Source of the DNA: a virus
DNA: 23,233 nt
Reading direction: 5' to 3' (one strand)
IMG/VR virus record: IMGVR_UViG_3300035698_028646
Location: 1-23,233 of that record
A program made the translations under genes and the position numbers. The notes beneath the pieces are model-generated. The model searched no databases. It saw nothing but the letters and a program-made list of their open reading frames with translations, and had not been told where the DNA came from. Below are positions 1-22,228 of the stretch, one piece after another; the first letter of the stretch is position 1, and every line of letters begins with the position of its first letter.

Positions 1-464
1 ACAAATGCTCCATTACGAATGGACGAGCTAATAGTATCTGATATGTTCGTATTCCATGGAATTTTTTTAGTATATATTTCATTTTTATTTTTATCTGAAA
101 CAAAAATTTCAGTATTAAAATTTTGAACAGCAGATGACTTAATTAAGTTTTCATCTATCAAATCGTTTGTTGTAGACTTATCAAAAAAATTTTCTTTTAC
201 TTGATGCTTTGCTAAAACCGAGCCTCCTTGAAAAAAAATATATTGACTTATTACTCTTGATCCTCTTATAAATTTATTTTTATAAATATCTATAGATCCA
301 CCGATTACCCTTAACATCTCAATAGATCCTGACAGTCCCAACAAAGCATTTTCTGAAAATAAAATACCTTCGCCATTGTCAATTAAAACATTTCGTGTAT
401 AACCAAATCCACCATTGGGATTTTCAGATATCGTATTTCCTCTTATTTTTATATTAATATCCAT
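1..464 (-). CDS. Virion-type protein, N-terminal part (runs off window)
   Basis: An open frame starts with ATG at 464-462 and stays open for about 154 codons to the left edge, so only the N-terminus is seen. It begins MDINIKIRGNTISENPNGG and continues with short beta-rich, Asn/Gly/Ile-rich segments such as LIDNGEGILFSENALLG. That texture resembles the beta-helix or fibre proteins next to it. Its ATG overlaps the TAA stop of the upstream 1505-residue gene by one base (TAATG), which suggests translational coupling at the end of the fibre operon. No catalytic motif is visible and the function is unknown. A fibre-associated or virion protein is inferred from texture and position only. Confidence 0.75.
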   Translation of the reverse strand, partial: MDINIKIRGNTISENPNGGFGYTRNVLIDNGEGILFSENALLGLSGSIEMLRVIGGSIDIYKNKFIRGSRVISQYIFFQGGSVLAKHQVKENFFDKSTTNDLIDENLIKSSAVQNFNTEIFVSDKNKNEIYTKKIPWNTNISDTISSSIRNGAF

Positions 465-3400
465 TAAGTTCCATTCACATTTATTAAAATAAATCCATTA
501 TTTAGTATGGCAGATGTTGAGTAAGGAATTAAAAATGATGGGTTTGATGCCACAATATAATTATTACTAACATCTAATGTTGGGGTAGGTGAAGTATTTG
601 CAATCAATGTTTTGAACAATAAATGCATCCAATTACAATGGTTTTTCTCAATATTAACGTTAGAACTATATATTCCTTGATCAATAGCTATTGAGAAATC
701 AACAGTTCCACTAGAAGATCCGCTGAAAATAAATTTACTATTATTTTCCACTATTGAAAGTATGCTATTTTTATCAAATATTGCAGAGCTATTAAATGAT
801 GTTGATATTGCTTGCCCTCTTGTAAAATAACATATAGACCCGCAAATATTATTTTTTATATTTACATTAATTGGAACTAATCCGTTCAAAACTTGACTTG
901 ATCCGTTTCTATCCGCGCTAAAAACAATCATTTGATTTTTATCACATACGTTTTTTTCAATATTCAAATTTACTATTTCGCAACCTAATGCAGAGCTATT
1001 TACACTAGTTTCTACAAAACTTATTACAGACCTTCTATCTTCTGATGAGATAGAGTTATTAAAATAATTACCTATAATATTACAATTTTCAAGATATCCA
1101 GTTCCATCAGTACTTACAAATGATATTCCTGGATGATGATCTGGTCCGTTTATGTTGAATATACAATTTTCTATTGTAATATTTTTAATTAACTTGCCAT
1201 TGAGATTGCAAAAAATTCCCGCTTTTAAAGGATTATTTAATGCGTCTGTACTATACAGAGTATTAGGAGAAAGGCTATAGTTAAATACGCAATTTTTGAA
1301 TGATATGTCGCTTCCCAATAATACGATACCTAATGGGTTTAGTATATCGAAATAAACATTTTCAAATTCAACATTAGAATATACTAGCGCAGATGGGAAA
1401 TCAACAATTAATTTACCACCATCTCCAATATACTTTATTTTATTTTTTAATTTAAAGTTTTGAGGAGTTGCGGTTAATAATATATTATCCCTTATTTTTA
1501 CCTCAGTCGAATATGAGTTATGTCCGGAATTTTCTACAGAAGAATAAGAGTTTAGTCTTGACAACCAAGTATTTAATGTTGCCACGTCTTTTATAGATTT
1601 TCCAAGAATAAATGGATTATCTAATCCTCCATAACCTTTTCCAATGTATCTCTGTGCAGGGCTTATCTGAGCTCCGGTAACTCTAAATTTAGAGGAAGGC
1701 GTATCTAATGTTAGCGTTGGTTTAACTATTAAAATAGGTGTTAGGTTTTTGTTATAATCTAAAGATACCAAATCTGACCAAGATGATGAGCGAACTATAT
1801 ATGGTGATGCCGCGGTATCATTAATATTTAAAACGTAAAACATTCTTTGGTGATCTAATGAAAGTGATGTATAGCTTGAGTTTGGAAGCGTAAAGTCTGA
1901 AAATGCAACATACTCATACTCAGCCTTATCGTTTACGCAAAGTATCCACTCCACATCATTTGTTAAAAGTGAGCCTGAATAAGGAACAAGTGTTTCTCTT
2001 AAAATAGGAAGATTTACGTATTCAGAATTTAATTGAACGAATTTTCCATTTACTAATGCTGTTCCTCCAGAAATTTGCATTCGATTTGGATTAATTATAT
2101 TTTCATATTCAAGAAGTTGAAATCCACTAATAAGTCCGTTCTCATCTAAATATTTATTTCCAGCAGAAATAAAATCTAATGCGGAAGTAGATAAATTTCT
2201 TTCGCTTACATTTCCAAATTGCCTCGCATCTGATAATGAATTTATTTTTTTAATTATTTCATTTACTTGAACAGTGCTTAAAATCATCAACTCTTCATTA
2301 AATTGAAGCGTTGGGAATAATTGTATATCGATTTTTCTAGCGGAGCTCCATGAAGTGGCTGAAAATAAATTATCAATTAAAATTTCAACATAATCAATAT
2401 TGGACTGATCGTAAAATCTTACGGGCTGCCCCTTTTCCCCAAAAGCGAGTGGTCCAATATTATTAATATTTACGCCATCAAATGAGCATAAATATCCTGA
2501 AAACTGTCCCGTTATCTGATTATAATTTGTTATTTGAATATTTACTTTATTAACGCTTCCGTAAGAATATCCTTTTAATTTTGGACTAACTGAAACTATA
2601 TTTAGTTCAAATAATTCAGGGTCAGCGTAAAGAATATTTGAATTTACAGCAATATTTGAAGTAAGACTTAAACGCGCGCGCTCGTGAGATAATGTTTTGC
2701 CATTGACATTCAAATATATTTCAAACCATCTTTTGAATGATGTATTAATTGGCGATAGATCGGATGCATTTCCAGAGCTGAATGCTACGCTATCAGATCC
2801 AAAGTATAATTTAACATCAGTTCCAATAACTGCATTTGCAAACGGTGTACTTCCCGTACCATGAACGCTATCGAAAACTGTTATATTAGTTATTCCTCCG
2901 TAACCATCGCAATCACAATCATTAAATACAACATCTTTGATAAAAAATCTTCCGCTATCTACGGAATTGGATGAAATTACAGATAATGTTTTGCCTACTT
3001 GTAGTGATGATGTTGAAAGGTCCTGCTGAACCTCATAGGTAGTTTCAATTCTTGTTCCTGGAATAATTGTTTTTCCAATTATTTTGGCATTCCAAAATGA
3101 TTCTCCGTATCCGTCATTTATTTGGAACGGTTCAGTTGCAAATTTTTCAATTTCATTACCATTGACATTTGCAAAATTTCTTATGAGAGGTGAAAATATT
3201 TTGGTTGGATTTTGAGCAACTAAAGTAGTTATTGACCCAGATGCAGTTAGCGAATACCTTGGCGATGCCGATCCTGACCCAGACGGCGAGAATCCTAAAG
3301 CGTCGCTTAAGTCAAATCCGGGAATTCCAACAACATTTCTTGGATAAAAAGAATTTGAAGAAGATTGTTCGTAGTTTCCAGAGGCGTCTAAAGACCCAGA

Positions 3401-4981
3401 GATAATTGAAAATGATGCAACGTTTATTGGATCAGCCATCATTATTCCGAATTCACCTTTATGCGAAAAGGCGATGAATCTATAGTTAAATCCAGCTAAT
3501 CTTAATGAGTTATTGGTAGATTCAACCACAGATGATAGTGTGTATGAACCAGGCGTAGATCCTTTATTTCCGGAAATATCTATTGCTACTAACTCTTTAG
3601 AAGAGCTTAAAGGATTGCCGTTTGCATATATCGCTAGATAAAGATTGTAATGAAACTCATCGATTTGATCTGGCTCAAATCCTATGCCTAGGGTTTGTGC
3701 AGATCTTGGATTTCCTATTATTAATGATGGTAAGGATCCAGTTGGAGAGTTTGCTTGAGCCGTTGCTAAAACCCCATACTTATTTGTATTTACTGGATTT
3801 TTATAAACCTGCGCGGAGAAGTTTCCAGATGTTAAATTTTTAGAGCTAACTCTAATTACATATCTTTGCGGTGAATTTGGGGATAAAGGCTTTTTCTCTT
3901 TAACCATTGTTTGCACTGAAAATGGAGATCCATATCCATCTGGACCGTTTCCATATCCATCAAAATAGTTTATATTTACAATGTCTCCTATTTTTATTTG
4001 CTGAAACATTGTATCGAAATATCCATTTGTTGAAAATGGTGTATTTGGCAAAAACTCGATAATATCATCACCAGTATCAATATTATCTACTGGAAGATTG
4101 GAGCTATTATTAAGCAAATAAGTTTTTATTTTTGTATCTAAAATAATATTAGTTGAAAAATTACTACCTACCGTAGCAGATCTTGAAGATCTTGAAATTC
4201 CATTTGAGAAGAATGTTTGTATTTTAGTTCCGAGCAAGAATATATTAGAATTATCAACGAATTCTAAAACGTCTTGAAGAGATTTTTTATCCTGTGGTAT
4301 GTATGAAAAGTTTGATGAATTTACAAAAATGCCATCTGCTACGTGAGCGTAATTATCTGCAGGAACCGTTCCAACCGAAGGTGATGTTGGATCAACAATT
4401 CCGAAATTTGTTCCATCCGCTTTTTCATGGGCAACAAAATTTTTGTTTATATTTTTTAATAAATTATATGAATTTGAGTTATCAAGATTTATATTCTTTT
4501 TATTTTTCAAAAAATTAGCAGTAATCCCAACATCTATGTCCGATAGTTTGTGCCTGTAAATAAATCCAGATAGGTGCGGCTCAAATTTAGATCCAGTATC
4601 GGAAATAAAAGATAATGACGTGTAAGCATTTCCTTCTATTTCAAGAAGCTTATTATATAAGTCTTGAGTTGCATGGTCTAGATTTAGTTTAGATTCTGAT
4701 ATGTCAGCTGCCGATGAAATATGATAGTCATATATTGGAAGAGATATAAGTCCGGAAGATGTTATTGCTGATGAGCTTAGGGTACCATCCGCATTAATAC
4801 TAACTCCAAGCCTTTCGCTAATTGAATTTTTAGTTCCAGAGGCGCCCAAACCTATTTCAGTCTCTATATTGAATATAGCGTCACGCACGGCATTAATAGC
4901 ATCTCCACCTACTTCAGTAATGTTGTCATTTACTGGGGGTAGTTCTAAATCTGTATCAATTTGATTTGGAAAATTACTCAT
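464..4981 (-). CDS. Large virion/tail fibre protein with C-terminal beta-helix
   Basis: This 1505-residue protein is the largest in the window. The N-terminal ~60 residues (GGDAINAVRDAIFNIETEIG, then an ISERLG segment) resemble the start of many phage fibre or baseplate-attached proteins. The middle is beta-rich and non-repetitive. From about residue 1160 to the end there are stacked short rungs rich in Asn, Ile and Val (for example IENCIFNING, VNIKNNICG, VNIEKNHCN), as in right-handed parallel beta-helix spikes. Four DGY tripeptides occur near residues 340, 346, 623 and 691; one sits in a DCDCDGYGG loop. There is no enzyme motif I can name, so host-surface binding or structural extension is inferred. 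The ATG at 4981 has only a weak upstream AAAAGA. The stop overlaps the next ATG. Confidence 0.85.
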   Translation of the reverse strand: MSNFPNQIDTDLELPPVNDNITEVGGDAINAVRDAIFNIETEIGLGASGTKNSISERLGVSINADGTLSSSAITSSGLISLPIYDYHISSAADISESKLNLDHATQDLYNKLLEIEGNAYTSLSFISDTGSKFEPHLSGFIYRHKLSDIDVGITANFLKNKKNINLDNSNSYNLLKNINKNFVAHEKADGTNFGIVDPTSPSVGTVPADNYAHVADGIFVNSSNFSYIPQDKKSLQDVLEFVDNSNIFLLGTKIQTFFSNGISRSSRSATVGSNFSTNIILDTKIKTYLLNNSSNLPVDNIDTGDDIIEFLPNTPFSTNGYFDTMFQQIKIGDIVNINYFDGYGNGPDGYGSPFSVQTMVKEKKPLSPNSPQRYVIRVSSKNLTSGNFSAQVYKNPVNTNKYGVLATAQANSPTGSLPSLIIGNPRSAQTLGIGFEPDQIDEFHYNLYLAIYANGNPLSSSKELVAIDISGNKGSTPGSYTLSSVVESTNNSLRLAGFNYRFIAFSHKGEFGIMMADPINVASFSIISGSLDASGNYEQSSSNSFYPRNVVGIPGFDLSDALGFSPSGSGSASPRYSLTASGSITTLVAQNPTKIFSPLIRNFANVNGNEIEKFATEPFQINDGYGESFWNAKIIGKTIIPGTRIETTYEVQQDLSTSSLQVGKTLSVISSNSVDSGRFFIKDVVFNDCDCDGYGGITNITVFDSVHGTGSTPFANAVIGTDVKLYFGSDSVAFSSGNASDLSPINTSFKRWFEIYLNVNGKTLSHERARLSLTSNIAVNSNILYADPELFELNIVSVSPKLKGYSYGSVNKVNIQITNYNQITGQFSGYLCSFDGVNINNIGPLAFGEKGQPVRFYDQSNIDYVEILIDNLFSATSWSSARKIDIQLFPTLQFNEELMILSTVQVNEIIKKINSLSDARQFGNVSERNLSTSALDFISAGNKYLDENGLISGFQLLEYENIINPNRMQISGGTALVNGKFVQLNSEYVNLPILRETLVPYSGSLLTNDVEWILCVNDKAEYEYVAFSDFTLPNSSYTSLSLDHQRMFYVLNINDTAASPYIVRSSSWSDLVSLDYNKNLTPILIVKPTLTLDTPSSKFRVTGAQISPAQRYIGKGYGGLDNPFILGKSIKDVATLNTWLSRLNSYSSVENSGHNSYSTEVKIRDNILLTATPQNFKLKNKIKYIGDGGKLIVDFPSALVYSNVEFENVYFDILNPLGIVLLGSDISFKNCVFNYSLSPNTLYSTDALNNPLKAGIFCNLNGKLIKNITIENCIFNINGPDHHPGISFVSTDGTGYLENCNIIGNYFNNSISSEDRRSVISFVETSVNSSALGCEIVNLNIEKNVCDKNQMIVFSADRNGSSQVLNGLVPINVNIKNNICGSICYFTRGQAISTSFNSSAIFDKNSILSIVENNSKFIFSGSSSGTVDFSIAIDQGIYSSNVNIEKNHCNWMHLLFKTLIANTSPTPTLDVSNNYIVASNPSFLIPYSTSAILNNGFILINVNGT

Positions 4982-10154: not shown

Positions 10155-10504
10155 CGATAGACTGTAAAAATTGCTATATAAATAGCCAGCTATGCTTGAG
10201 TAGATTTACACTAAATAAGAAAATATTTTTCTACTGCGCAAAATGCGGTCCATTGTGCAGTAGTTTTAGCTTCAGTTTTGAAAACAAAGAAATAATAGAT
10301 TTTAAATTCAATTTATTAGTGGAAAATATGAGGTATACGATATACTCATCGTCTAAGTTTTCAAACTGCTTGGTATATCTATCCGTAGATAGGGAGCCAT
10401 TAATTGAATTAGATAAATTTTTTATTTTAAATTTATCATCTAATATAGAAAATCAGATGATTAAGATTGTTGAGAAGGCAATTAATTTAAAAAATTTTAG
10501 GTGA
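10139..10504 (+). CDS. Small protein with N-terminal zinc ribbon
   Basis: This 121-residue reading frame has two cysteine knuckles near its N-terminus: CKNC at about residues 9-12 and CAKC at about 34-37, with extra cysteines close to each. That suggests a zinc ribbon. The rest alternates hydrophobic strands and helices (NCLVYLSVDREPLIELDKF; IENQMIKIVEKAINLKNF), as expected of a real folded protein. The start is uncertain: GTG at 10139 is the only usual start codon before the cysteines, it has no ribosome binding site, and it lies inside a predicted RNA structure. An ATG at 10126 in another frame reads MPYTCGTGAFDRL then stops, so a frame error is also possible. The 3' end overlaps the convergent endonuclease gene by 8 bases. 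Function unknown. Confidence 0.55.
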   Translation: MGQALSIDCKNCYINSQLCLSRFTLNKKIFFYCAKCGPLCSSFSFSFENKEIIDFKFNLLVENMRYTIYSSSKFSNCLVYLSVDREPLIELDKFFILNLSSNIENQMIKIVEKAINLKNFR

Positions 10505-11465
10505 CTAAGTATTCGATGATATTAAATTTTCTATCCAAATAAATATTAGATTTTTCATATAAGTATTTTACTATATTTTTCAATATTAAGTTCCCGCCAT
10601 ATTCTAGTAAGCCCATTCCGGATGAAATCCTAATAGGCTTAGATCTTTGTTTTAAGCAACACTTATTTTCCAAAACCTCTCTTATCTTTAATAAGAAATT
10701 AGAATTGCCCCTCATTGAGAATGCCAACTGATCTAATTTATTTACTTTCCTGATCCAATAAAAAGACCCATCGCCATCATTGTATCCTCTTATGAAATGA
10801 TGCAGTAATTCGTGGCTTAAAATCCAAGTAGGAATATCGTATATTTTACTTTTACGCATAACAACATTAAATCTACTCAAATCTTTGCAAATTTTTCTCG
10901 AAGTTATTTTTAACTCACAACTACTAGTACCATTACATCTATTATTTTTAAAGTTAATTGGATTGCTAGCATTTAAAATTTTTTTTAATTTTTCTAAATG
11001 ATTAAAGTCGCTCGCTTTAAGTCCTAAAGACAAAACGTTTGGAATAGATTTATTTTTAGTACAAGCTAATACGCACCCATCCGCAGCTATAAAGCCCGCC
11101 CAATAGAAACTCGTCTCATTATCTTTTTCGAAAAAGTCATGATCGCAACTATGAATAACTTGCTTTTTATATGGCAAATTAAAAATGTCCATATATTTTT
11201 TGATATCCGCGCAATCAACAAATAGCTCTCGCGCCAATTTTTTAGTTGATTGTAATTTTTCATACCCTTGCTTAAGAACGTCGTATGTCAATATTTTAGA
11301 TAGATCTCTATTTATTTTATAATTTATAGAAAAATTGTTGCAAGCCTTCTTTATACTATAGACACTAACTCCATAATATTTTGCTACTTTATTTGCACTT
11401 TTTAGTGCGGTTAGATCTTTAACAAGCCGGTCTTTTGTTATTTTATCTAAAAACTTGTTTTGCAT
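10497..11465 (-). CDS. Free-standing LAGLIDADG homing endonuclease
   Basis: This 322-residue protein has two LAGLIDADG motifs: FYWAGFIAADG at 120-130 and FIRGYNDGDG at 224-233, each with the expected catalytic acidic residue. That fits a single-chain, two-domain homing endonuclease that cuts double-stranded DNA at a long site. Upstream are two helix-turn-helix-like segments, about residues 24-41 (NKVAKYYGVSVYSIKKAC) and 73-91, probably for DNA binding. It lies between the Ig-like virion gene and the gap upstream of the metallopeptidase, 27 bases after the preceding stop, and interrupts the virion operon without splitting a gene. A TATAAT box is 5 bases before its ATG, so independent expression is possible. 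No intron or intein boundary is seen. Confidence 0.88.
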   Translation of the reverse strand: MQNKFLDKITKDRLVKDLTALKSANKVAKYYGVSVYSIKKACNNFSINYKINRDLSKILTYDVLKQGYEKLQSTKKLARELFVDCADIKKYMDIFNLPYKKQVIHSCDHDFFEKDNETSFYWAGFIAADGCVLACTKNKSIPNVLSLGLKASDFNHLEKLKKILNASNPINFKNNRCNGTSSCELKITSRKICKDLSRFNVVMRKSKIYDIPTWILSHELLHHFIRGYNDGDGSFYWIRKVNKLDQLAFSMRGNSNFLLKIREVLENKCCLKQRSKPIRISSGMGLLEYGGNLILKNIVKYLYEKSNIYLDRKFNIIEYLVT

Positions 11466-11492: not shown

Positions 11493-12386
11493 TTAAAATC
11501 TGCCACTTCGCAAGTGTCTAAGTCTTGCAACCGCTGTATTTCTTCCGCCAGTAGCAGACCAGGTGCCCAGACCAATTGGAGATGGTCTCAAAGAATTTTT
11601 AATTAATTTTATTTTTTCCCAATAATTTGTAAGCTCTGAAGAATATTGAGTATTCATCATATCCGAAACTGTTGGCGGCGTAAATGAAATTCCGTTATCA
11701 GTAAAATTATATTCTCTACCTCTCTCTAATAGAGCCATACTTGATAAAGCGAATAATGTCGCAGATTGAACTAATACAGTTCCGAACTGAGAAATAAAAT
11801 GATCATCTTCGAATGTAAAAAAGGTGAAATATGGAATAGCGTTAAATTCCATTAAAGCCATCGCCAGAAAACTTACTAAGGTATCTACTGTATAGATATC
11901 GCAGTCAACATAGATATCATTACCGTACTTGTCTTTTGATAACGCCTTACCAGAAGAATTTAATCTTGCTTTAAGCATTCTAATTAATATATTTATATTT
12001 TTAATTGCATTCTGAGAATAGTTTAGCCCAATTACGTCTCCGAGGTGTGAATAACCATCCGTATTAATAGATGGTATTTGCGTGCCAGAAACCACGAAAC
12101 TAAAGGTAGTTTCTATTCTGAAACCATTTATGAAGCCGACCCAAATATCATTCCACGCTCCATATGGACCAGCATATGGAATTGTTAAAGTATATCCATA
12201 TTTTCCAGTATCAAGCCTTGAAACTCCAACGGAAGTTGGAGCTAAAAACAAACCGCCAGACGGTTGAACTATAGAAATTTTAGGAAAACTATCCGTATCA
12301 ATTGGATTTCCCATTTGATCTTTAAATAAAACGGTCAGATTTATTTGTTCTGTTACATCAGTTTCTTGTCCGCGAAATTTAATCAT
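11493..12386 (-). CDS. Virion structural protein with N-terminal Ig-like domain
   Basis: I place the start at ATG 12386, giving 297 residues, because it overlaps the upstream stop as ATGA; a longer frame opens at 12455 but would run inside the upstream gene. Residues 1 to ~100 form a beta-sandwich-like domain (FRGQETDVTEQINLTVLFKD ... SRLDTGKYGYTLTIPY) related to the whole of the upstream 116-residue protein. After a DGYSHLG linker comes a helical region containing a hydrophobic segment (VSFLAMALMEFNAIPYF). The C-terminal signature is NYWEKIKLIKNSLRPSPIGLG, then a basic tail (VARLRHLRSGRF). That C-terminal pattern reminds me of conserved neck or tail proteins of large phages, but the exact role is not established. 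Confidence 0.8.
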   Translation of the reverse strand: MIKFRGQETDVTEQINLTVLFKDQMGNPIDTDSFPKISIVQPSGGLFLAPTSVGVSRLDTGKYGYTLTIPYAGPYGAWNDIWVGFINGFRIETTFSFVVSGTQIPSINTDGYSHLGDVIGLNYSQNAIKNINILIRMLKARLNSSGKALSKDKYGNDIYVDCDIYTVDTLVSFLAMALMEFNAIPYFTFFTFEDDHFISQFGTVLVQSATLFALSSMALLERGREYNFTDNGISFTPPTVSDMMNTQYSSELTNYWEKIKLIKNSLRPSPIGLGTWSATGGRNTAVARLRHLRSGRF

Positions 12387-12733
12387 ATTGTTTGAACCGA
12401 TGTTGCATAAATCCCGTAAGGAGCCGATACTATTAATTGATATCCTTGAGTGCAATTTTCAAAACTAATTGGATGAACGTAACTTACGCTTATAAAATAG
12501 CTTCCAACAGAAATTGCACCTCTTGGTATTTGGAATTGAAATGCATATAAGCCGGTATCAAGCTGAGTTAACGGAAGCGAATATCCATCGTATCCGTCAT
12601 TGGTAAAATCAGGAAGAAGTATTGAGCTGACAATAGGAATATTTAAAGTGTCTATTCTTGTATTAGAATATCCATCAGTCACTTCTAAAAATATACTGGC
12701 TTTTGCTCCTGGAGTATAATTTAATATATGCAT
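12383..12733 (-). CDS. Small Ig-like virion protein
   Basis: This 116-residue protein is predicted all-beta. It shares the pattern LTQLDTGLYAFQFQIPRG with the N-terminal domain of the following gene (SRLDTGKYGYTLTIPY), so the two are probably paralogous Ig-like modules. It is unusually rich in DGY, with three copies (VTDGYSN and NDGYDGYS) in what look like beta-turns. The ribosome binding site is good (AGAAGGGCGTTT before ATG 12733). Its TGA overlaps the next ATG, indicating translational coupling. A neck, tail-tube decoration or fibre-attachment role is plausible but unproven. Confidence 0.8.
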   Translation of the reverse strand: MHILNYTPGAKASIFLEVTDGYSNTRIDTLNIPIVSSILLPDFTNDGYDGYSLPLTQLDTGLYAFQFQIPRGAISVGSYFISVSYVHPISFENCTQGYQLIVSAPYGIYATSVQTI

Positions 12734-13685: not shown

Positions 13686-14825
13686 ATGGATTCCAGACAA
13701 GACAGAATTTTTACATTCGAAGAATTAAGTTGGATTTACTCTAATATAATCGAAGTTGATGGAAATTTATTCTTTAATGAAAATCCAATTCAAACTTTTT
13801 TAAATAAAGCTGGGATATTAAAAATATATTTGCCTAGGCATCCAAAAGATAGCCCATTCAAAAGTATTAATCAAATTAAAGCAAAGGTACACAGAATTGT
13901 ATGGATTATTCACAACAAAATTAATCCAGAGATTGTAGAGCACATATCTAGCGATTTTAGAAACAATAACATTTTGAATTTAAACCATATTTCTTTCAAA
14001 GAAATGGAAAATAGATCAAAAAAAGAAAAATTGGAATATAATAGAATTCATTCCAATATAAAGAACAAAACGTCGAGAGGAAGATACGAACACGCGCAAA
14101 AAAGAGCAAAAAATTTTTTAGGCGAGTTCACACTTTCTTTTGAAAAGTACGAAGCTTTACTTACAAAGCCCTGTCATTATTGTTCTGATTATTTTAAGGG
14201 CACAGAAAATACTGGCTCCGGATTAGATCGAATTAATAATGATCTTGGATATCAATCGAATAATATTGTTAGATGCTGCGCTTTCTGCAATTATTTAAAA
14301 GGCGATAATTTATCTTATGATATATTTAAAGCAGCATTAAAGTCTTTAATTTTTTATAATAAAAAAGAGTTTGAAAAACTAAAAGATATTAATAATTACT
14401 ACGATCTCAACAAACATTTGTATAAGATAGATCGATCAGAAGAAATGAATGTAGCTCTACCGAAACGAATAGCCAAAGATAATAACATTGAATATGCTAG
14501 AGCTTTTTCTCAAAAACTATCGTCGAGATATTCTCAATCGGTATGTTTAAGTAAGCGAAAGGATAGAGATTTTTCGTTAACTTTCGAAGAGTTTAAAAAA
14601 GAAATTTTAAAACCTTGTTATTACTGTAATGATTATTTCAGATTATCGGGAGCTAAAACCGGAGTAGGATTAGATAGAAAAAATAATGCTTTAGGATATA
14701 CAGTCGAAAATTCTGTATCCTGCTGCCCCCATTGCAACTATCTTAAAAGAGATAGCTTGTCTCCAGAACAAGCTTCAATTTTCATAAGGTCGGTTATTTT
14801 TAATAAAGTTAAGTTAATACTTTAA
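13686..14825 (+). CDS. Multi-domain HNH endonuclease (three HNH-type modules)
   Basis: This 379-residue protein carries two clear tandem zinc-HNH modules. Module A has PCHYC (162-166), GLDRINND (179-186) and CCAFCN (197-202). Module B has PCYYC (310-314), GLDRKNN (328-334) and CCPHCN (346-351). Each keeps two CxxC knuckles and the D-R-x-N core. Before them, residues ~66-105 resemble the HNH_3 type of homing endonuclease (VHRIVWIIHNKI; EHISSDFRNNNILNL), with His and Asn residues kept. That gives three nuclease-like modules in one chain, an uncommon layout. It is probably a free-standing homing endonuclease, active or with some domains reduced to DNA binding. It follows the XhlA-like gene by 3 bases and its end overlaps the convergent cold-shock gene by 17 bases. 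Confidence 0.85.
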   Translation: MDSRQDRIFTFEELSWIYSNIIEVDGNLFFNENPIQTFLNKAGILKIYLPRHPKDSPFKSINQIKAKVHRIVWIIHNKINPEIVEHISSDFRNNNILNLNHISFKEMENRSKKEKLEYNRIHSNIKNKTSRGRYEHAQKRAKNFLGEFTLSFEKYEALLTKPCHYCSDYFKGTENTGSGLDRINNDLGYQSNNIVRCCAFCNYLKGDNLSYDIFKAALKSLIFYNKKEFEKLKDINNYYDLNKHLYKIDRSEEMNVALPKRIAKDNNIEYARAFSQKLSSRYSQSVCLSKRKDRDFSLTFEEFKKEILKPCYYCNDYFRLSGAKTGVGLDRKNNALGYTVENSVSCCPHCNYLKRDSLSPEQASIFIRSVIFNKVKLIL

Positions 14826-15937: not shown

Positions 15938-16747
15938 TTATGCCTGAACTAATTTCATAGTAGAATATATTATACCTGTAGAAGTGCTTCCGCATAAAAC
16001 CATCATCGTAAGGCAGGCGCTATTATTTATTACTGGAAGCCCAGTTAATTGCCAATCGTATACAACGGAGCTATTCGCTAGAGCGCACGAAAAACTAAAA
16101 ACTGACCTTGTACAAGTTACTCCAAAATTTCCGACCGTACCAGTAGATACTGATAATCGAACGCTTTCGATACTTTTAATAAATTTTGCAGTAGAAGCGG
16201 AAAGTATTGGAATTGCCCTACCAGCAGCCCACGAAGCCGGAATGCTTATAGTTATGTTTTGGGTAGTATTATTATTATATGTAACAGCTACCGTAGCAAC
16301 CGTCGCCGTCGTTCCTGTTGAGACATACCACTCTAACCACCATTGAGTATCTGAAAATGCAGGATCTCCTATTCTTAATGTTAAATCCACATGATCTGCA
16401 CTTAGATCTACGTTCTGAGTTGCCGTAGAATTTCCGACTAAACCGCCGATTTGTAAAAGCCTATCTACGACATATACATCTGTAGCAGATATTCCAGCTA
16501 AGCAAGTTCCTCGAATCAAATAATTAGAAATTCCTACTCCGGCGTCTGAGAAAGTTAGTGCTCCAAAAGTTGACTTATCACATACCTGCCCTGAAGATGG
16601 CAATGAAGCTTGTCCATGAATTCCAATGGCGCGCCACATCGAAGTCCAGCCTCCTGTTACTTGCGATGTTAGCGAAGCTTTATTGACTAAAAATGCTTGA
16701 GAATTATTAAAACTATTTATTAATGTATCTAAACTAGTAATTGGCAT
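15938..16747 (-). CDS. Fibre/adhesin protein, paralogue of the next gene upstream
   Basis: This 269-residue protein is colinear with the C-terminal ~240 residues of the 16752-17977 gene. For example LRIGDPAFSDTQWWLEWYVS matches LRKGDAMFSDVQWWAEWYSN, and GTVGNFGVTCTR matches GAIGNFGITATR. The shared domain is beta-rich and small-residue-rich, with no catalytic motif I can see. It looks like a phage fibre head or adhesin domain for receptor contact. The N-terminal 30 residues (LDTLINSFNNSQAFLVNKAS) may attach it to the partner. The ribosome binding site is good (GAGGGATAATAAT before ATG 16747). The gene begins 4 bases after the paralogue's stop, consistent with tandem duplication. Confidence 0.8.
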   Translation of the reverse strand: MPITSLDTLINSFNNSQAFLVNKASLTSQVTGGWTSMWRAIGIHGQASLPSSGQVCDKSTFGALTFSDAGVGISNYLIRGTCLAGISATDVYVVDRLLQIGGLVGNSTATQNVDLSADHVDLTLRIGDPAFSDTQWWLEWYVSTGTTATVATVAVTYNNNTTQNITISIPASWAAGRAIPILSASTAKFIKSIESVRLSVSTGTVGNFGVTCTRSVFSFSCALANSSVVYDWQLTGLPVINNSACLTMMVLCGSTSTGIIYSTMKLVQA

Positions 16748-16751
16748 ATTA

Positions 16752-17977
16752 TTATCCCTCAGTTAACCTTATTACTCCGCCTATTGTTCCAGTACTTGTT
16801 GCACTGGGAATCACAATTAACATGGGGCAACAATCATCTTGAATAACCGGTAATCCTAATTGCTGCCAATCATTATAAGATATACTATTTGAAATCCGGC
16901 AGGAAACACTAGATATAATCCTAGTTGCAGTTATTCCGAAATTACCTATAGCACCGGAGCTTGTTGGTAAAGTTATTGTTTGTATTGACTGAATGAATTC
17001 TCCACCAGAACCAATGATTGGAATCATCCTATTTGCAGCTACAGAAGCGAACATATTTATTGTGGTACTTCTATTTGCAATACCGGCAGCGTTAGTATAG
17101 GATATAGTTACGTTATTAACCGCAGATGATCCAGTATTGCTATACCATTCAGCCCACCACTGAACATCTGAAAACATAGCATCTCCTTTTCTGAGGTTTA
17201 GAGATATGTCGCTAACATCCAAATTTACCGTTTGTGAAATTAATGATGTGCCACTTAAACCGCCCATATGGGCTAATCTATCATAAAAATAAATATCAGT
17301 TGCGTTATTTGCACAGTATAAATTGCATTTATAAAAGTAGTTTGACCCAGAATTAGCATTAACTAAGGGTACACTTCCTGTTAGCGAGGAAGTGCAAATC
17401 GCAGCAGCGGACGGTATAGCGCCAGCAGGTGGGGCTGAGGCTGCTCTCCAAAAAGACGTAAATCCACCAGGAGCCTGCCACGTTGCCGCGGATCCTGAAG
17501 TTGCAGTTAATACTTGTCCGACAGATGGCGTCGCTGGAACTGTTGTTCCATTTATTCTTAGTACTTGCGGAAGTAACGCAGTTCCACCTAAATCGTTAGC
17601 TAGCTGAACAACTCCTCTTGCTGATGAAGAAGCATCGCTTGTGACATGATTGCTATTTATCGTAAATGTTCCACCAGCACCGCTATCAACAAAGCTAATG
17701 TTTGTTCCGGCAGTTAAAATTCTTTCATCAGTTAGTGTAGCATTACTTGCTAAAGTTAGGTACTGTGCATTTACGGGCGCTTGATTTGAAGCGCTAATAG
17801 TCAATGCGTTTCCAGGACCCGCATCGTTAATGGTAATGTTTGTTCCGGCAGTTAACACTCTTTCACTTGTTAGTGTTGCGTCGGTAGCTAAAGTTATATA
17901 TTCAGCAGCTCTAGGAGCAGAATCAGCTCCACCGCCGCCAGCGCCTCCCCTCCCCAATAAGTAACATACCCGCTCAT
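16752..17977 (-). CDS. Tail fibre protein with N-terminal repeats; start frame disrupted at a G run
   Basis: The C-terminal ~240 residues are the adhesin-type domain shared with the following gene. The N-terminus has two ~40-residue repeats: AEYITLATDATLTSERVLTA and AQYLTLASNATLTDERILTA, each followed by GTNI and an acidic-glycine turn, typical of phage fibre shafts. The long frame has no in-frame ATG here and could begin only at TTG 17957 (GRGGAGGGGAD...). A well-placed ATG at 17977 (leader TTAAGGTAAAT) encodes MSGYVTYWG in the neighbouring frame. One extra G in the GGGG at 17952-17955 would join them as MSGYVTYWGRGGAGGGG, giving 408 residues. I therefore extend the gene to 17977 and treat the disruption as a sequencing error, a slippage site or a mutation. 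Confidence 0.75.
17696..17896 (-). repeat. Two 63-bp direct repeats in the fibre gene
   Basis: Units at 17696-17758 and 17834-17896 share 52 of 63 bases by hand count. The first 22 bases (TAATGTTTGTTCCGGCAGTT plus AA) and the last 10 (GCTAAAGTTA) are identical. They encode the two LTSERVLTAGTNI-type shaft repeats. Spacing is 138 bp. Recombination between them could lengthen or shorten the fibre. Confidence 0.8.
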
Positions 17978-18027: not shown

Positions 18028-19065
18028 TTATTTTAAATTTTTAAAAATGTGAATAGGCTCATATTTTGGGTTGTCTTTATCACCAAAATGGCTTTTTACC
18101 ATTGTCATTTTAACTTCTTCAAAAGGCTCTCCAAAATATTCTTTAGCAATATTAACCATTCTAATATCATTATTTATATTTAATCCAAAGAACTTTTCAG
18201 GCTTTAACATAAATTTTACATTTTCGCAAGTTTTGCGCCAATATTCTTCGTAGAAGTATTCTGAGCCTTTTGCGTAAGCCTGCGTATCATCATTCGAATA
18301 TTTTTCCAAATCGAAATATGGAGGCGAGCTAAATGAAAAATCAATAGAGTTTTCCTCAAGCCTTACATTTTCGGATCCGCTCTTTATAAGATTTATGTCT
18401 TTTAAGGCTAAGTGGTTTGCCATTGTACGAAGACTACCCGTTGTAAGAGGATCGGTTCCAATGTACTTTCTTCCCGCTGCAGCGGCGCCCAGCATCCTTC
18501 CTCCCCACCCTGCAGAATAATCGTATACCGTATCGCCATATTCTGAATATCGCTCATATAAATATTTAGCAGCCGTAGGTTTGAATATAGATATATTGTA
18601 GCTAAAGCCTCCGGATATAAATCCGCGGAATACTGTTTTTAAAGAGATATCAAACTTTTCATCGGTTTCTGTTTTCCATCCAAGCTTCATTCTATTTCTA
18701 ATGGACTTCAAAAGAGTTTCATCGTTATGAAACGCGTCGAATAATGAAGTGCTTTTTTTATATTTAGCCGCATAGAATTGCTCATAACAAAATCTTTTGC
18801 AAAGCATTGTGCAAATATTATTACTTGAACTTATTTCGAGCTTTGAGATATCAGGCTTATTATTTATAAGAACTTGATAGTCTTTCATTGGATCTTTATC
18901 GATGCGCAAATGCAAGCCTATGGATCTGATGTAATCAAATGTTTTCTTTGCAAGAACCTCTTTCTCTTCTTTAGATAAAGAGGCTACGTATTTTTTTGTC
19001 AAAGCGTTTCCTTCGATAACGAATATTTCGTTAAATTCGGGATAAGTTTGATTTGTTATTGTCAT
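18028..19065 (-). CDS. SAM-dependent amino-methyltransferase (DNA N6-A/N4-C type)
   Basis: This 345-residue protein has the class I methyltransferase SAM-binding loop VYDYSAGWGGRMLG (residues 180-193), an acidic residue after strand two (GTDP, 203-206) and the catalytic motif IV SSPPY (246-250). SPPY is typical of enzymes methylating an exocyclic amino group, usually in DNA, so N6-adenine or N4-cytosine modification is likely. The recognition site is unknown. The first ~150 residues are a separate domain (KKYVASLSKEEKEVLAKK ... FDAFHNDETLLKSIRNRM), also found truncated at the end of the endonuclease encoded at 19552-20976. It may protect phage DNA from host restriction. No matching restriction enzyme is seen. 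The ribosome binding site is weak (AAAGAAAAATT). Confidence 0.85.
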   Translation of the reverse strand: MTITNQTYPEFNEIFVIEGNALTKKYVASLSKEEKEVLAKKTFDYIRSIGLHLRIDKDPMKDYQVLINNKPDISKLEISSSNNICTMLCKRFCYEQFYAAKYKKSTSLFDAFHNDETLLKSIRNRMKLGWKTETDEKFDISLKTVFRGFISGGFSYNISIFKPTAAKYLYERYSEYGDTVYDYSAGWGGRMLGAAAAGRKYIGTDPLTTGSLRTMANHLALKDINLIKSGSENVRLEENSIDFSFSSPPYFDLEKYSNDDTQAYAKGSEYFYEEYWRKTCENVKFMLKPEKFFGLNINNDIRMVNIAKEYFGEPFEEVKMTMVKSHFGDKDNPKYEPIHIFKNLK

Positions 19066-19085
19066 AATTTTTCTTTATTCATGTA

Positions 19086-19122
19086 ATGATATATATCATA
19101 TATCCATTTTTTAAAATGGATA
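19086..19122. repeat. Two adjacent palindromes upstream of the methyltransferase gene
   Basis: A perfect 14-base palindrome ATGATATATATCAT (19086-19099) is directly followed by a 10-base inverted repeat TATCCATTTT / AAAATGGATA with a 2-base centre (19101-19122). Both lie in the 66-base gap between the HTH gene and the methyltransferase gene. They could be operators for the HTH protein or an attenuating hairpin. AT-rich background makes the first one weaker evidence. Confidence 0.4.
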
Positions 19123-19131
19123 ATAGTGCTA

Positions 19132-19467
19132 TTATGTTTTATATGAAAATCTGTCGTAAGCAGATCTAATAATAACGCCTCTTGCGCGAAGCTTATCCAA
19201 AACTTGGTCCGGACTAACTTCTAACAAAAATGCTATTTGTTCCGCAGATTTTACAGCATACTCTTTTACAGCAAAATCTATGTCTTTTTCAGACATAACT
19301 TTTCCACGAAAATTTAAAACGACATTCCTTTTTTTAATCCCTCTTCGTATAACTTGTTCACTAGTATTATACTCTAACGCAACGATTGGCGCAGATATGC
19401 CATTAGTGCACTTACTAATTATTTCAAGCCATTGTTCCTCTGTTATCTTAATGCGTAACTTACTCAT
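19132..19467 (-). CDS. Small double-HTH DNA-binding protein
   Basis: This 111-residue protein has two helix-turn-helix-like units. The first is at about residues 24-42 (ISAPIVALEYNTSEQVIRRG). The second is at about 74-96 (KSAEQIAFLLEVSPDQVLDK), followed by LRARGVIIR. The same order and a similar LRxRGVxxR end occur in the N-terminal 120 residues of the LAGLIDADG protein encoded just upstream (ILRRRGVVMNK), so this could be a detached endonuclease DNA-binding module or a regulator derived from one. The ribosome binding site is strong (AAGGGAGTAAAAT before ATG 19467). It sits between the endonuclease and methyltransferase genes on the same strand. Confidence 0.7.
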   Translation of the reverse strand: MSKLRIKITEEQWLEIISKCTNGISAPIVALEYNTSEQVIRRGIKKRNVVLNFRGKVMSEKDIDFAVKEYAVKSAEQIAFLLEVSPDQVLDKLRARGVIIRSAYDRFSYKT

Positions 19468-19551
19468 ATTTTACTCCCTTGCTTGTGACTATATCGTTAT
19501 TGATGGATGGATATCGCTTTGTATTCTCTAAATAATAAATTTATATTATAA

Positions 19552-20976
19552 TTATAATATTAGTGATTGCAAAATAACGTTAATAGAAATTTCAAGCTCT
19601 TTTTGCAACCCCGATTTCATAACATTTCTAATGGTATATAATAATTTATTATCGCTGGCAAATGCTTCTAATATCGATTGTCTTTTAGAAGCGCTCATAT
19701 CGTAGTTTAAATATAAACTATAACTATACATAGTATTATTTTCGCAATAAGCGGATATTCCGATAGATCGTAAATAGTCTAATGTTTTTTTAGCAATATT
19801 TTCTCTCTCGGATCTTGATAGAGATGATAAATATTTATTCGTTAATTTAACGCCACCAATAACCAAAGTTTGTTTTAATTCAGGATACATAAGCTTATAT
19901 CCGCTCATTGGAAATCCACAAGTTCCAGATAATATTTTTTTATCAATATCATTCATTTTATTACGAAGCTCTAAATATTTATTATATTTTCGTTCTAGAT
20001 GAATTGAAGAGGAGCTGTAAATATAGTTTGTGAATTTGTAAATATTACGATTTCCGCTTATTGTAAGAATATAGGTGTTTTTATCGCTACCTACTTTATT
20101 CTCATAAAGATTTGATGAAATACCAATTATTTTGATAATAGATTGAATTTCCTCTAAAAATTCTTTCGTAGAAATTATTTTGCATCCAGTTTTATCATTA
20201 TCGGGATTATATAATGAGCCATCTCCGTCAAAATATCCCCTAATAAAATGCCTATATAAAAAAGTATTTAAAAAATTAGGAAAGGTTAATTTGAATGTTT
20301 TTAAATGTACACACCCAGCATTACTTAATGATTGGCACATATATTTGCTATTCATATGAAGGGTATAATCTATACCTTTATCTTCTGAAGATCTATCCGT
20401 TCTTTTTACCTGAGAATCAATATCTTCTTTTGTAGAATATACGAGCGCCGCTAGTTTATAAACAATTTCTTTGTCTATTTCATTTAAAGAAATGTTAGCC
20501 TTATTATGTAAAATTTGATTACATCCGTCCGCGTACATGAATCCTAAAAAATAAGCCTTGCTTTCACTATCAATAGTATCGAAAAATTTCTCATTCAATT
20601 GGTATTTTCTTTGTGTTTGACCTGGCTTATTCATAACCACGCCTCTTCTACGCAAGATACTTTTGATACCGCCCGCAGTTACGCTTCTTCTATTAGATCC
20701 AGTTTCGGCGAGTATAAAAGCTTGCGCAATTTTAGCTGGGCTTGTATTATTTTTATACATTTTGCACATTATGTTCTCTTCATATTCTGCCCAGTCCCGC
20801 AATGGTCTAATTATCACACCTTCTTTTTTTAAAACGTTTCTAATAACTCCAGGAGTGTAAATTATGTTTGAATTAGAAAAAAATTTCGCGATTGTTTCCG
20901 CCCCTTTTCCAGATTCATAGGCTGTTACAATTTCTTTTCTTTCTTCTAGGCAAATATCGTTTAATTTTTTTATCAT
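19552..20976 (-). CDS. LAGLIDADG homing endonuclease fused to a methyltransferase N-terminal fragment
   Basis: I start at ATG 20976 (474 residues); a TTG two codons earlier is in frame. Residues ~10-120 hold two HTH-like DNA-binding units. The nuclease core has LAGLIDADG motifs AYFLGFMYADG (141-151) and FIRGYFDGDG (244-253). After about residue 345 the sequence changes: residues ~363-470 match residues ~7-147 of the nearby methyltransferase. NKYLSSLSRSERENIAKK aligns with KKYVASLSKEEKEVLAKK, and ILEAFASDNKLLYTIRNVMK with LFDAFHNDETLLKSIRNRMK. About 30 residues are missing in the middle, and the SAM and SPPY motifs are absent. It is a chimera, perhaps left by homing into a methyltransferase gene. 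A near-consensus sigma70 promoter lies about 45 bases upstream. Confidence 0.85.
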   Translation of the reverse strand: MIKKLNDICLEERKEIVTAYESGKGAETIAKFFSNSNIIYTPGVIRNVLKKEGVIIRPLRDWAEYEENIMCKMYKNNTSPAKIAQAFILAETGSNRRSVTAGGIKSILRRRGVVMNKPGQTQRKYQLNEKFFDTIDSESKAYFLGFMYADGCNQILHNKANISLNEIDKEIVYKLAALVYSTKEDIDSQVKRTDRSSEDKGIDYTLHMNSKYMCQSLSNAGCVHLKTFKLTFPNFLNTFLYRHFIRGYFDGDGSLYNPDNDKTGCKIISTKEFLEEIQSIIKIIGISSNLYENKVGSDKNTYILTISGNRNIYKFTNYIYSSSSIHLERKYNKYLELRNKMNDIDKKILSGTCGFPMSGYKLMYPELKQTLVIGGVKLTNKYLSSLSRSERENIAKKTLDYLRSIGISAYCENNTMYSYSLYLNYDMSASKRQSILEAFASDNKLLYTIRNVMKSGLQKELEISINVILQSLIL

Positions 20977-21020
20977 GTTCAATATATTAGATCGTTTTTT
21001 AAAGATTGTAGCAGATACAT

Positions 21021-21155: not shown

Positions 21156-22166
21156 TTATCGACCGACGACAACTGACTTACGACCAACTGCTACGCCTCG
21201 TGGATTAACAATCCCAATTCCGATAATCTCACTTACAACCCAGCCAAGTTTTAGTTGACGTGGTTCGTCAGCGGGAAGTACTTCAATGTCTTGACGTATT
21301 GGCATGACGCCGACGAACTCGGGATCAGCAACTGCGTAAACTGTACCAGGTGGTACAATCTTCGAAACGAGAATATCTGCGCCCCAGATCCTGGCGTAAA
21401 GACCGGTCTGTAGAACTTCGCGCATGGTGACCTGATCGAATTCACCGCCGCCTAGACCTTGACCACCACCGGAACCCCATGATAGGATATCGTTGTAATC
21501 TAGGATGTTCATGAAAAATTTGGTGGTTACTAGGTCCCAACGATCAACCTGAGCCTTGATGGCAAGTAGATCGCGCTTGGTTAGACCTGCGTCAGAAATA
21601 TCAACGGCTTGATTTTCTACTTGAGCTGCTGAGTCGAAAGCTGCGAAGACGTTAGCATCTTCTTGTGCCATGATCTCTTGACGAGCTTTCTGGACTGCGC
21701 GGTCAATAACGTTGAAACGACGACGTTTGACTTCTGCAATACGGATGGTTGGATTTGCGTAAATTTCGAACTCAGGAACCACAACGCGGTCACCGAAGAT
21801 GCGGCTCTCTGGACCCGAACCATTGGACGAAATAACTACTGCTTGAACGTCAACGTCGCGTTCGTAAGTAGCCATTGCGCCTTGTGGCAACGCATCTACC
21901 ACAAGGGATCTACGAGCGATGCCATGGTAGTCAAGATTGCGGCGAATTGGATTAGCCATTGCCTGAGCTAAAGCTAGTTTTCCGTCCTGGGTCGAGATGG
22001 CGCGTGAGATTAGATCATCACGACGTGCATCCGACATATCGGTTGAGCCGCCGACTGAGCTTGAAGAAGCTCCGTCGTCTAATGCCGATGCGTATTTAGC
22101 AAGCTGAGCTGCTAGATCTTTTAGTGAGTTGGCGTTCATTTCTCCGCCGTTATTAAACATATTCAT
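21156..22166 (-). CDS. Major capsid protein (HK97 fold)
   Basis: The product is 336 residues from ATG 22166, chosen because GGAG lies 8 bases upstream; a longer frame to 22220 has no support. It matches a phage major-capsid family I recognise by pattern: LAQAMANPIRRNLDYHGIAR, LVVDALPQGAMATYERDVDV, a FEIYANPTIRI strand, and RRRFNVIDRAVQKARQEIMA followed by QEDANVFAAFD. The end has an EVLPADEPRQLKLGWVVSEI segment. The first ~60 residues (Ser/Gly/Asp-rich after KDLAAQLAKYASAL) may be a scaffold-like arm. GC content is about 47% in two 60-base blocks I counted, against about 30% around it, consistent with codon selection in a very highly expressed gene or with different ancestry. It has its own strong terminator and leader hairpin. 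Confidence 0.92.
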   Translation of the reverse strand: MNMFNNGGEMNANSLKDLAAQLAKYASALDDGASSSSVGGSTDMSDARRDDLISRAISTQDGKLALAQAMANPIRRNLDYHGIARRSLVVDALPQGAMATYERDVDVQAVVISSNGSGPESRIFGDRVVVPEFEIYANPTIRIAEVKRRRFNVIDRAVQKARQEIMAQEDANVFAAFDSAAQVENQAVDISDAGLTKRDLLAIKAQVDRWDLVTTKFFMNILDYNDILSWGSGGGQGLGGGEFDQVTMREVLQTGLYARIWGADILVSKIVPPGTVYAVADPEFVGVMPIRQDIEVLPADEPRQLKLGWVVSEIIGIGIVNPRGVAVGRKSVVVGR

Positions 22167-22212
22167 TTGCAAAACTCCATATATGGGTATTATTTGCCAG
22201 CTTACGCCAGCG

Positions 22213-22228
22213 CAGCACAAAGGTGCTG
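22213..22228 (-). promoter_or_regulatory. Leader hairpin and TATAAT box of the capsid gene
   Basis: On minus, CAGCAC-CTTT-GTGCTG forms a perfect 6-bp hairpin about 47 bases before the capsid ATG, possibly stabilising the mRNA 5' end. TATAAT abuts it at 22234-22229 and a second TATAAT lies at 22269-22264; neither has a good -35 at normal spacing. A transcript from the second box would contain the whole hairpin. Confidence 0.45.

Follow-up and report, generated by a model that had tools for sequence, protein, structure and literature searches.

A truncated methyltransferase N-domain at the end of a phage LAGLIDADG endonuclease, and fused relatives of the pair behind the capsid gene

In a 23,233-nucleotide stretch of viral DNA (the window), the C-terminal end of a LAGLIDADG protein resembles the N-terminal part of a DNA methyltransferase encoded next to it on the same strand. 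LAGLIDADG enzymes are known for homing, and the question raised by this locus is how one of them came to carry a piece of a methyltransferase, and whether the piece still has a role. An earlier note had taken it for a truncated copy of the methyltransferase N terminus, left either by homing into a second methyltransferase gene or as a DNA-binding domain shared by the two proteins.

The endonuclease, its stub, and the neighboring genes

The endonuclease (P0001; 476 residues, 19552–20982, minus strand) consists of a helix-turn-helix (HTH) array, a two-motif LAGLIDADG core, and a methyltransferase stub, as judged from Pfam and PHROG matches and from an AF2 model searched with Foldseek. It matches Pfam LAGLIDADG_3 in two stretches (1.8e-17) and the endonuclease family PHROG 4645 (4e-52). 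The HTH region (residues 1–120; 20623–20982, minus strand) has a weak match to Pfam HTH_38 (0.017) and is helical in the model. The core (residues 125–345; 19948–20610, minus strand), identified by the conserved residues of relatives, carries the motifs AYFLGFMYADG and HFIRGYFDGDG and retains 12 of the 12 invariant and 34 of the 37 conserved positions of those relatives; both catalytic motifs are included, with the acidic residues D152 and D252/D254 present. The top Foldseek matches are PI-SceI-type, I-DmoI, I-OnuI, I-SceI, and bI3 chains, that is, proteins of the LAGLIDADG fold. At the level of sequence, the endonuclease core looks intact. Behind it lies the linker GTCGFPMSGYKLM (19888–19926, minus strand), which comprises the native C terminus of this LAGLIDADG clade and the fusion junction, followed by the stub (residues 366–476; 19555–19887, minus strand).

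The methyltransferase (P0002; 18028–19065, minus strand) is a complete enzyme of 345 residues with intact SPPY and GWGGR motifs, as indicated by family matches and by an AF2 model that shows the class I methyltransferase fold (pLDDT 90). Judged by its sequence, it belongs to an N6/N4-type phage methyltransferase family. Its first 150 residues (the N-domain; 18616–19065, minus strand) are the intact counterpart of the stub according to BLASTP, the N-domain tree, and the AF2 model, and this domain is found throughout the close methyltransferase family, in fused and unfused members. When the methyltransferase model was searched for folds like the N-domain, the best Foldseek matches were methyltransferases, with nothing specific to the domain standing out, and a profile of it gave no significant match among PDB sequences.

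Comparison of the two ORFs by BLASTP aligned residues 366–475 of the endonuclease with residues 8–150 of the methyltransferase at 32% identity over 143 columns including gaps (73 bits, E 1e-18), and a Smith–Waterman comparison gave z = 28 (2000 shuffles). In the family alignment, 41% of the 110 paired residues are identical. There is a single gap of about 29 residues, and the catalytic domain is absent from the stub. Together with the sister position of stub and P0002 in the N-domain tree (99/98), these results confirm that the end of the endonuclease is a truncated copy of the methyltransferase N terminus; the earlier note had placed it correctly to within one codon (19555–19890) and had described the one internal gap and the missing catalytic domain. 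Since the region 19050–19600 contains no methyltransferase remnant past the endonuclease stop codon in any frame, we reject the idea that a frameshift or a sequencing error simply divided a single ORF.

The copy is old. Third codon positions of stub and P0002 agree at 36%, against a chance expectation of 29%. This is near saturation, although the paired residues still match at 41%; dS is about 2.1 (saturated) and dN about 0.5. The divergence is, as proposed before, beyond that of a fresh duplication, and an assembly duplicate is an unlikely source because dS is saturated. The stub frame is open over 111 codons and its identity lies above what would be expected after neutral decay to saturation, which indicates that the stub was under protein-level selection for part of its history. 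That such a domain might simply be common at the ends of LAGLIDADG proteins was not borne out: none of the 14 standalone proteins inspected from this wider LAGLIDADG family has it, and a tblastn search of annotated phages with the stub gave no match at E 10.

Between the two genes lies a third, encoding a double HTH protein of 111 residues (P0003; 19132–19467, minus strand) that is homologous to the front ends of HTH-LAGLIDADG proteins. A profile of such front ends matched it with E 2e-11 in a two-sequence search. Pairwise comparisons gave z values of 8.5 to 9.4 with the front ends of L160, L164, L240, and L254, and of only 2.9 with that of P0001. The three ORFs are in the same reading frame, an agreement expected by chance in 1 of 9 cases, and are spaced by 28 and 22 codons that contain stops.

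Fused relatives and the capsid-downstream site

Scanning IMG/VR with one protein at a time (P0001, P0002, or the stub) gave no close relatives, and profile scans were therefore adopted, using the methyltransferase, the capsid protein, the LAGLIDADG protein, and a narrow methyltransferase clade; a first scan of genome contigs with the narrow clade profile had found no relatives. In the IMG/VR profile scan, the closest methyltransferase relatives of P0002 sit in large phages, and most of them have a LAGLIDADG core upstream within the same ORF. In total, 24 contigs from the same large-phage clade, including a few near-identical ones, encode an HTH array, a LAGLIDADG core, and a complete methyltransferase in one ORF of 643–743 residues. 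These 24 proteins thus combine a nuclease and a methyltransferase in one chain, with a likeness to Type IIC/IIG enzymes that concerns domain architecture only; P0001 does not, as it ends after the degenerate N-domain. Most of the fusions are located directly behind the capsid gene, as is the window pair; in the window, the gene for the major capsid protein (21156–22220, minus strand; 68–79% identity to aligned relatives) marks this common insertion site.

P0001 and P0002 have the same best relative, the fusion L170:3986–6025, with 41% identity in the LAGLIDADG core and 50% in the methyltransferase. Its junction LVGTRGYPKAHLHSNYPEYHQVLNING aligns with LSGTCGFPMSGYKLMYPELKQTLVIGG of the window and LTGTQGYPVHYLGKNYPDFYKPIVVNG of L014, and the linker pattern GTxGYP...YP is common to P0001, L014, and L170. 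The variants are GTQGYP and GTRGYP in the fused L014 and L170, respectively, GTQGYKK in the standalone L171, and GTRGY in L160. Standalone members of the P0001 clade end at ...GTQGYKKSNLLKTSSLK, which implies that the methyltransferase was joined at the natural end of the endonuclease. By its junction, its position downstream of the capsid gene, and its place with L014 and L170 in the LAGLIDADG tree, P0001 agrees with the fusion family.

In the N-domain tree, the sisters stub and P0002 are joined by L170 and L014 (91/99). The stub branch is long, at 2.1 changes per column, and its placement carries a long-branch risk. AU tests rejected a grouping of the stub with L170 (p 0.017) or with L014 alone (p 0.021) but did not reject a grouping with both (p 0.064). 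The LAGLIDADG core tree puts P0001 with L014, L170, and the standalone proteins L171–L178 (93/94), apart from the other large fusion clade, and fusions hence occur in at least two LAGLIDADG lineages. Standalone proteins lie within the clade of P0001, so that the methyltransferase may have been either gained or lost there. In the tree of whole methyltransferases (58 rows), P0002 belongs to a 16-row clade that includes 12 fused proteins (100/99) and stands beside L170 and L014 with weak support (86/47). The fused state requires five changes on this tree, and a single fused clade is rejected (p-AU 1.9e-6), which indicates that fusion or splitting recurs.

Between the capsid gene and the gene that follows, which we call neckA, the phages of this clade have an interval that is empty (130–164 nt) in L092, L100, L117, L121, L135, L151, and L152. 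Elsewhere in the clade it is filled by a LAGLIDADG gene, by a fusion, or by a LAGLIDADG gene and a fusion in tandem (L125, L143), and in L126 and L164 it holds a GNAT-like gene and a standalone methyltransferase. This interval is an insertion hotspot, with occupied and empty sites among phages of one clade, the pattern expected of homing. Unlike its relatives, the window has no neckA match behind the methyltransferase.

Several other arrangements were seen in the relatives. In L011 (1682–3756), L012, L230, and L254, the capsid gene is interrupted by LAGLIDADG ORFs in an intron-like manner; in L011 and L012, no intron scored above the Rfam threshold. Standalone methyltransferases of the clade follow a GNAT-like (LPG_synthase_C) gene of about 250 codons in L015 (4227–6047), L017 (4241–6023), L164 (8878–10664, where the two genes overlap by 4 bases), L226, and L235–L238, a possible DNA-modification pair. 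Many phages of the clade (L098, L106, L115, L118, L128, L134, L139, and L162) have a gene resembling CCA-adding tRNA nucleotidyltransferases right after the capsid gene but on the other strand.

Origin of the window pair

We consider it likely that the stub derives from an HTH-LAGLIDADG-methyltransferase fusion and that the endonuclease has lost the catalytic domain of the methyltransferase. The ancestral phage lineage would have carried, directly downstream of the capsid gene, a single gene for an HTH array, a LAGLIDADG endonuclease, and a complete methyltransferase. This gene, or its methyltransferase part, would then have been duplicated in tandem at the same site. One copy may have lost the catalytic domain and 29 residues of the N-domain, giving P0001 with its degenerate stub, and the other may have kept the methyltransferase (P0002) and lost the LAGLIDADG core, with probably only the HTH front part left as P0003. 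A tandem duplication is supported by the match of P0003 to LAGLIDADG front ends, by HTH-HTH-methyltransferase proteins without a LAGLIDADG core at the same site (L251, L254), and by extra methyltransferase sequences, namely a catalytic half ahead of a fusion in L240 and a second copy behind a fusion in L094; the part of P0003 in it is a suggestion. No relative with the exact arrangement of the window was found, and the path is for this reason a reconstruction.

As to function, P0001 would act as a homing-type endonuclease encoded by a free-standing gene, and by its cutting the capsid-downstream cassette would spread to phages that do not have it. No longer tethered as in the proposed ancestor, the methyltransferase would most likely mark phage DNA, possibly including the endonuclease's own target. 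The sequences show the homology, the fusion in relatives, the common junction and site, the empty sites, and the intact catalytic residues of both enzymes, whereas the duplication path, cutting, homing, target, and methylation are inferred; we put forward this working mode of homing plus self-marking tentatively.

One alternative is that the stub works, as a recognition or docking domain for the DNA of the methyltransferase or for the methyltransferase itself, so that the split pair acts together. Protein-level constraint (dN 0.5 against a saturated dS), the open frame of 111 codons, the confidently predicted helices of residues 370–400 (pLDDT about 90), and the continued adjacency of the P0001 and P0002 genes speak for such a role. 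The deletion, however, removed the most conserved part of the N-domain, the T86–F97 region with T86, C89, K90, C93, and F97, and 13 other conserved positions are altered, leaving 8 of 28, compared with 20 of 28 in P0002. Moreover, residues 411–438 in the middle of the stub have a pLDDT below 50 and are predicted to be disordered, and the 14 related standalone proteins do without the domain. While the stub has kept 8 of its 28 conserved residues, the core in front of it has kept 34 of 37, which favors a relic. We therefore regard a working stub as unlikely; the shared DNA-binding domain suggested earlier is disfavored, and a degenerating relic fits the data best.

The other two alternatives concern how the domains were joined. 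Phage methylase genes are invaded by homing endonucleases (PMC9957025, PMC11855218), and the C-terminal part of P0001 is a piece of a methyltransferase, as would be seen if the endonuclease had homed into a second methyltransferase gene and the downstream piece were the interrupted target. However, within the fused ORFs no methyltransferase piece was seen ahead of the LAGLIDADG core; the relatives carry the LAGLIDADG part in front of a whole methyltransferase, joined at the start of the latter and not internally, and in many of them the capsid-downstream site is empty rather than occupied by a methyltransferase. An intein or group I intron context also found no backing: Pfam shows no intein splicing (Hint) domain in P0001, L170, or L014, the LAGLIDADG part of P0001 begins its own ORF behind the HTH array with no N-terminal extein, and neither the window nor seven relatives has a group I intron match at the Rfam gathering score, a threshold that weak or novel introns could escape. 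This route, the one the earlier note had mentioned, is highly improbable. An independent fusion, in which this lineage alone joined a standalone LAGLIDADG gene to part of an already duplicated methyltransferase, with no full-length fusion as ancestor, would fit the occurrence at the site of standalone proteins with the same GTxGY end (L171–L178) and the repeated changes between fused and unfused states described above. It is nevertheless quite unlikely in our view, as P0001 has the GTxGYP...YP junction in common with L014 and L170, two full-length fusions that are near relatives of each half of the window pair. Descent from a full-length fusion, by contrast, places the window pair as a natural split of a fused endonuclease-methyltransferase and its endonuclease as a decayed variant, and the fused family behind P0001 is the more interesting object.

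Known systems and other nuclease partners

P0001 resembles the free-standing two-motif LAGLIDADG homing endonucleases of phages (PHROG 4645; I-DmoI/I-SceI fold) in its two acidic motifs, its HTH front, its free-standing gene beside an essential gene, and its patchy occurrence among relatives. It differs in bearing a methyltransferase stub and in having complete methyltransferase fusions among its nearest relatives. In 2023, Gosselin et al. (PMC9957025) described an actinophage methylase, Taj_79, with a LAGLIDADG domain inside it, in which neither an intein nor an intron was detected. The authors found the in-frame domain to be vertically inherited and considered a role in restriction-modification unlikely, LAGLIDADG enzymes being undescribed in such systems (PMC9957025); an out-of-frame HNH in the same methylase followed in 2025 (PMC11855218). 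Taj_79 and the fused relatives are alike in domain architecture, each being a single polypeptide that contains both a phage DNA methylase and a LAGLIDADG domain. Whereas the domain in Taj_79 is described as inserted into the methylase, in the present family it forms the N-terminal part together with an HTH array of its own, and the gene lies downstream of the capsid gene; in the window the fusion is broken. Fusions of GIY-YIG nucleases to methyltransferases were noted in 2006 for an Slx1 cluster (PMC1564403). Such fusions or operons, and single-chain restriction-modification enzymes, likewise recurrently join a nuclease and an N-methyltransferase in one chain; the GIY-YIG nuclease fold is different, and the present proteins are known from sequence and models.

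The set in the 58-row methyltransferase tree also holds fusions of the P0002 family to LAGLIDADG_2 domains (L006:973–4662, L194, L196, L210) and, in L208, to a TnsA-like nuclease, and L085, L089, and L190 have N-terminal extensions of uncertain nature on the methyltransferase. A nuclease of the Vsr/REase-like type is possible in L246, by a Pfam match to MTES_1575 (E 0.009 only). The fusions L006, L194, L196, L210, L262, and L208 and the possible one in L246 come from phage records and from archaeal and bacterial MAGs.

In the literature searched, which left most subscription journals outside its scope, we found no description of the capsid-adjacent HTH-LAGLIDADG-methyltransferase family, and the recurrent joining of one methyltransferase family to nucleases of the homing type is covered there in part only. 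A more far-reaching reading, which we hold to be rather doubtful, is that one phage methyltransferase family has repeatedly been joined to unrelated homing-type nucleases (LAGLIDADG_3-like, LAGLIDADG_2, TnsA-like, and possibly Vsr/REase-like), yielding one-gene homing modification enzymes. Their nuclease would cut competitors at the capsid locus, and their methyltransferase would protect the carrier; the window would then hold a split enzyme whose stub still helps the halves to act together. With a capsid-adjacent hotspot in large phages where LAGLIDADG endonucleases and a complete methyltransferase are joined, split, and rearranged, one can test if a single selfish gene can combine homing with self-protective modification.

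Elsewhere in the window, a second LAGLIDADG protein (10497–11465, minus strand) has at most 28% identity to the relatives in the tree, and a protein at 13686–14825 (plus strand) resembles two HNH-type halves in one chain. The genes at 15938–16747 and 16752–17957 (minus strand) are adjacent tandem paralogues with, by eye, a common C-terminal domain, and possibly encode tail or fiber proteins. Short DGYG and DGY motifs are abundant in predicted structural proteins (464–4981 and 12383–12733 of the window; L174:3–557).
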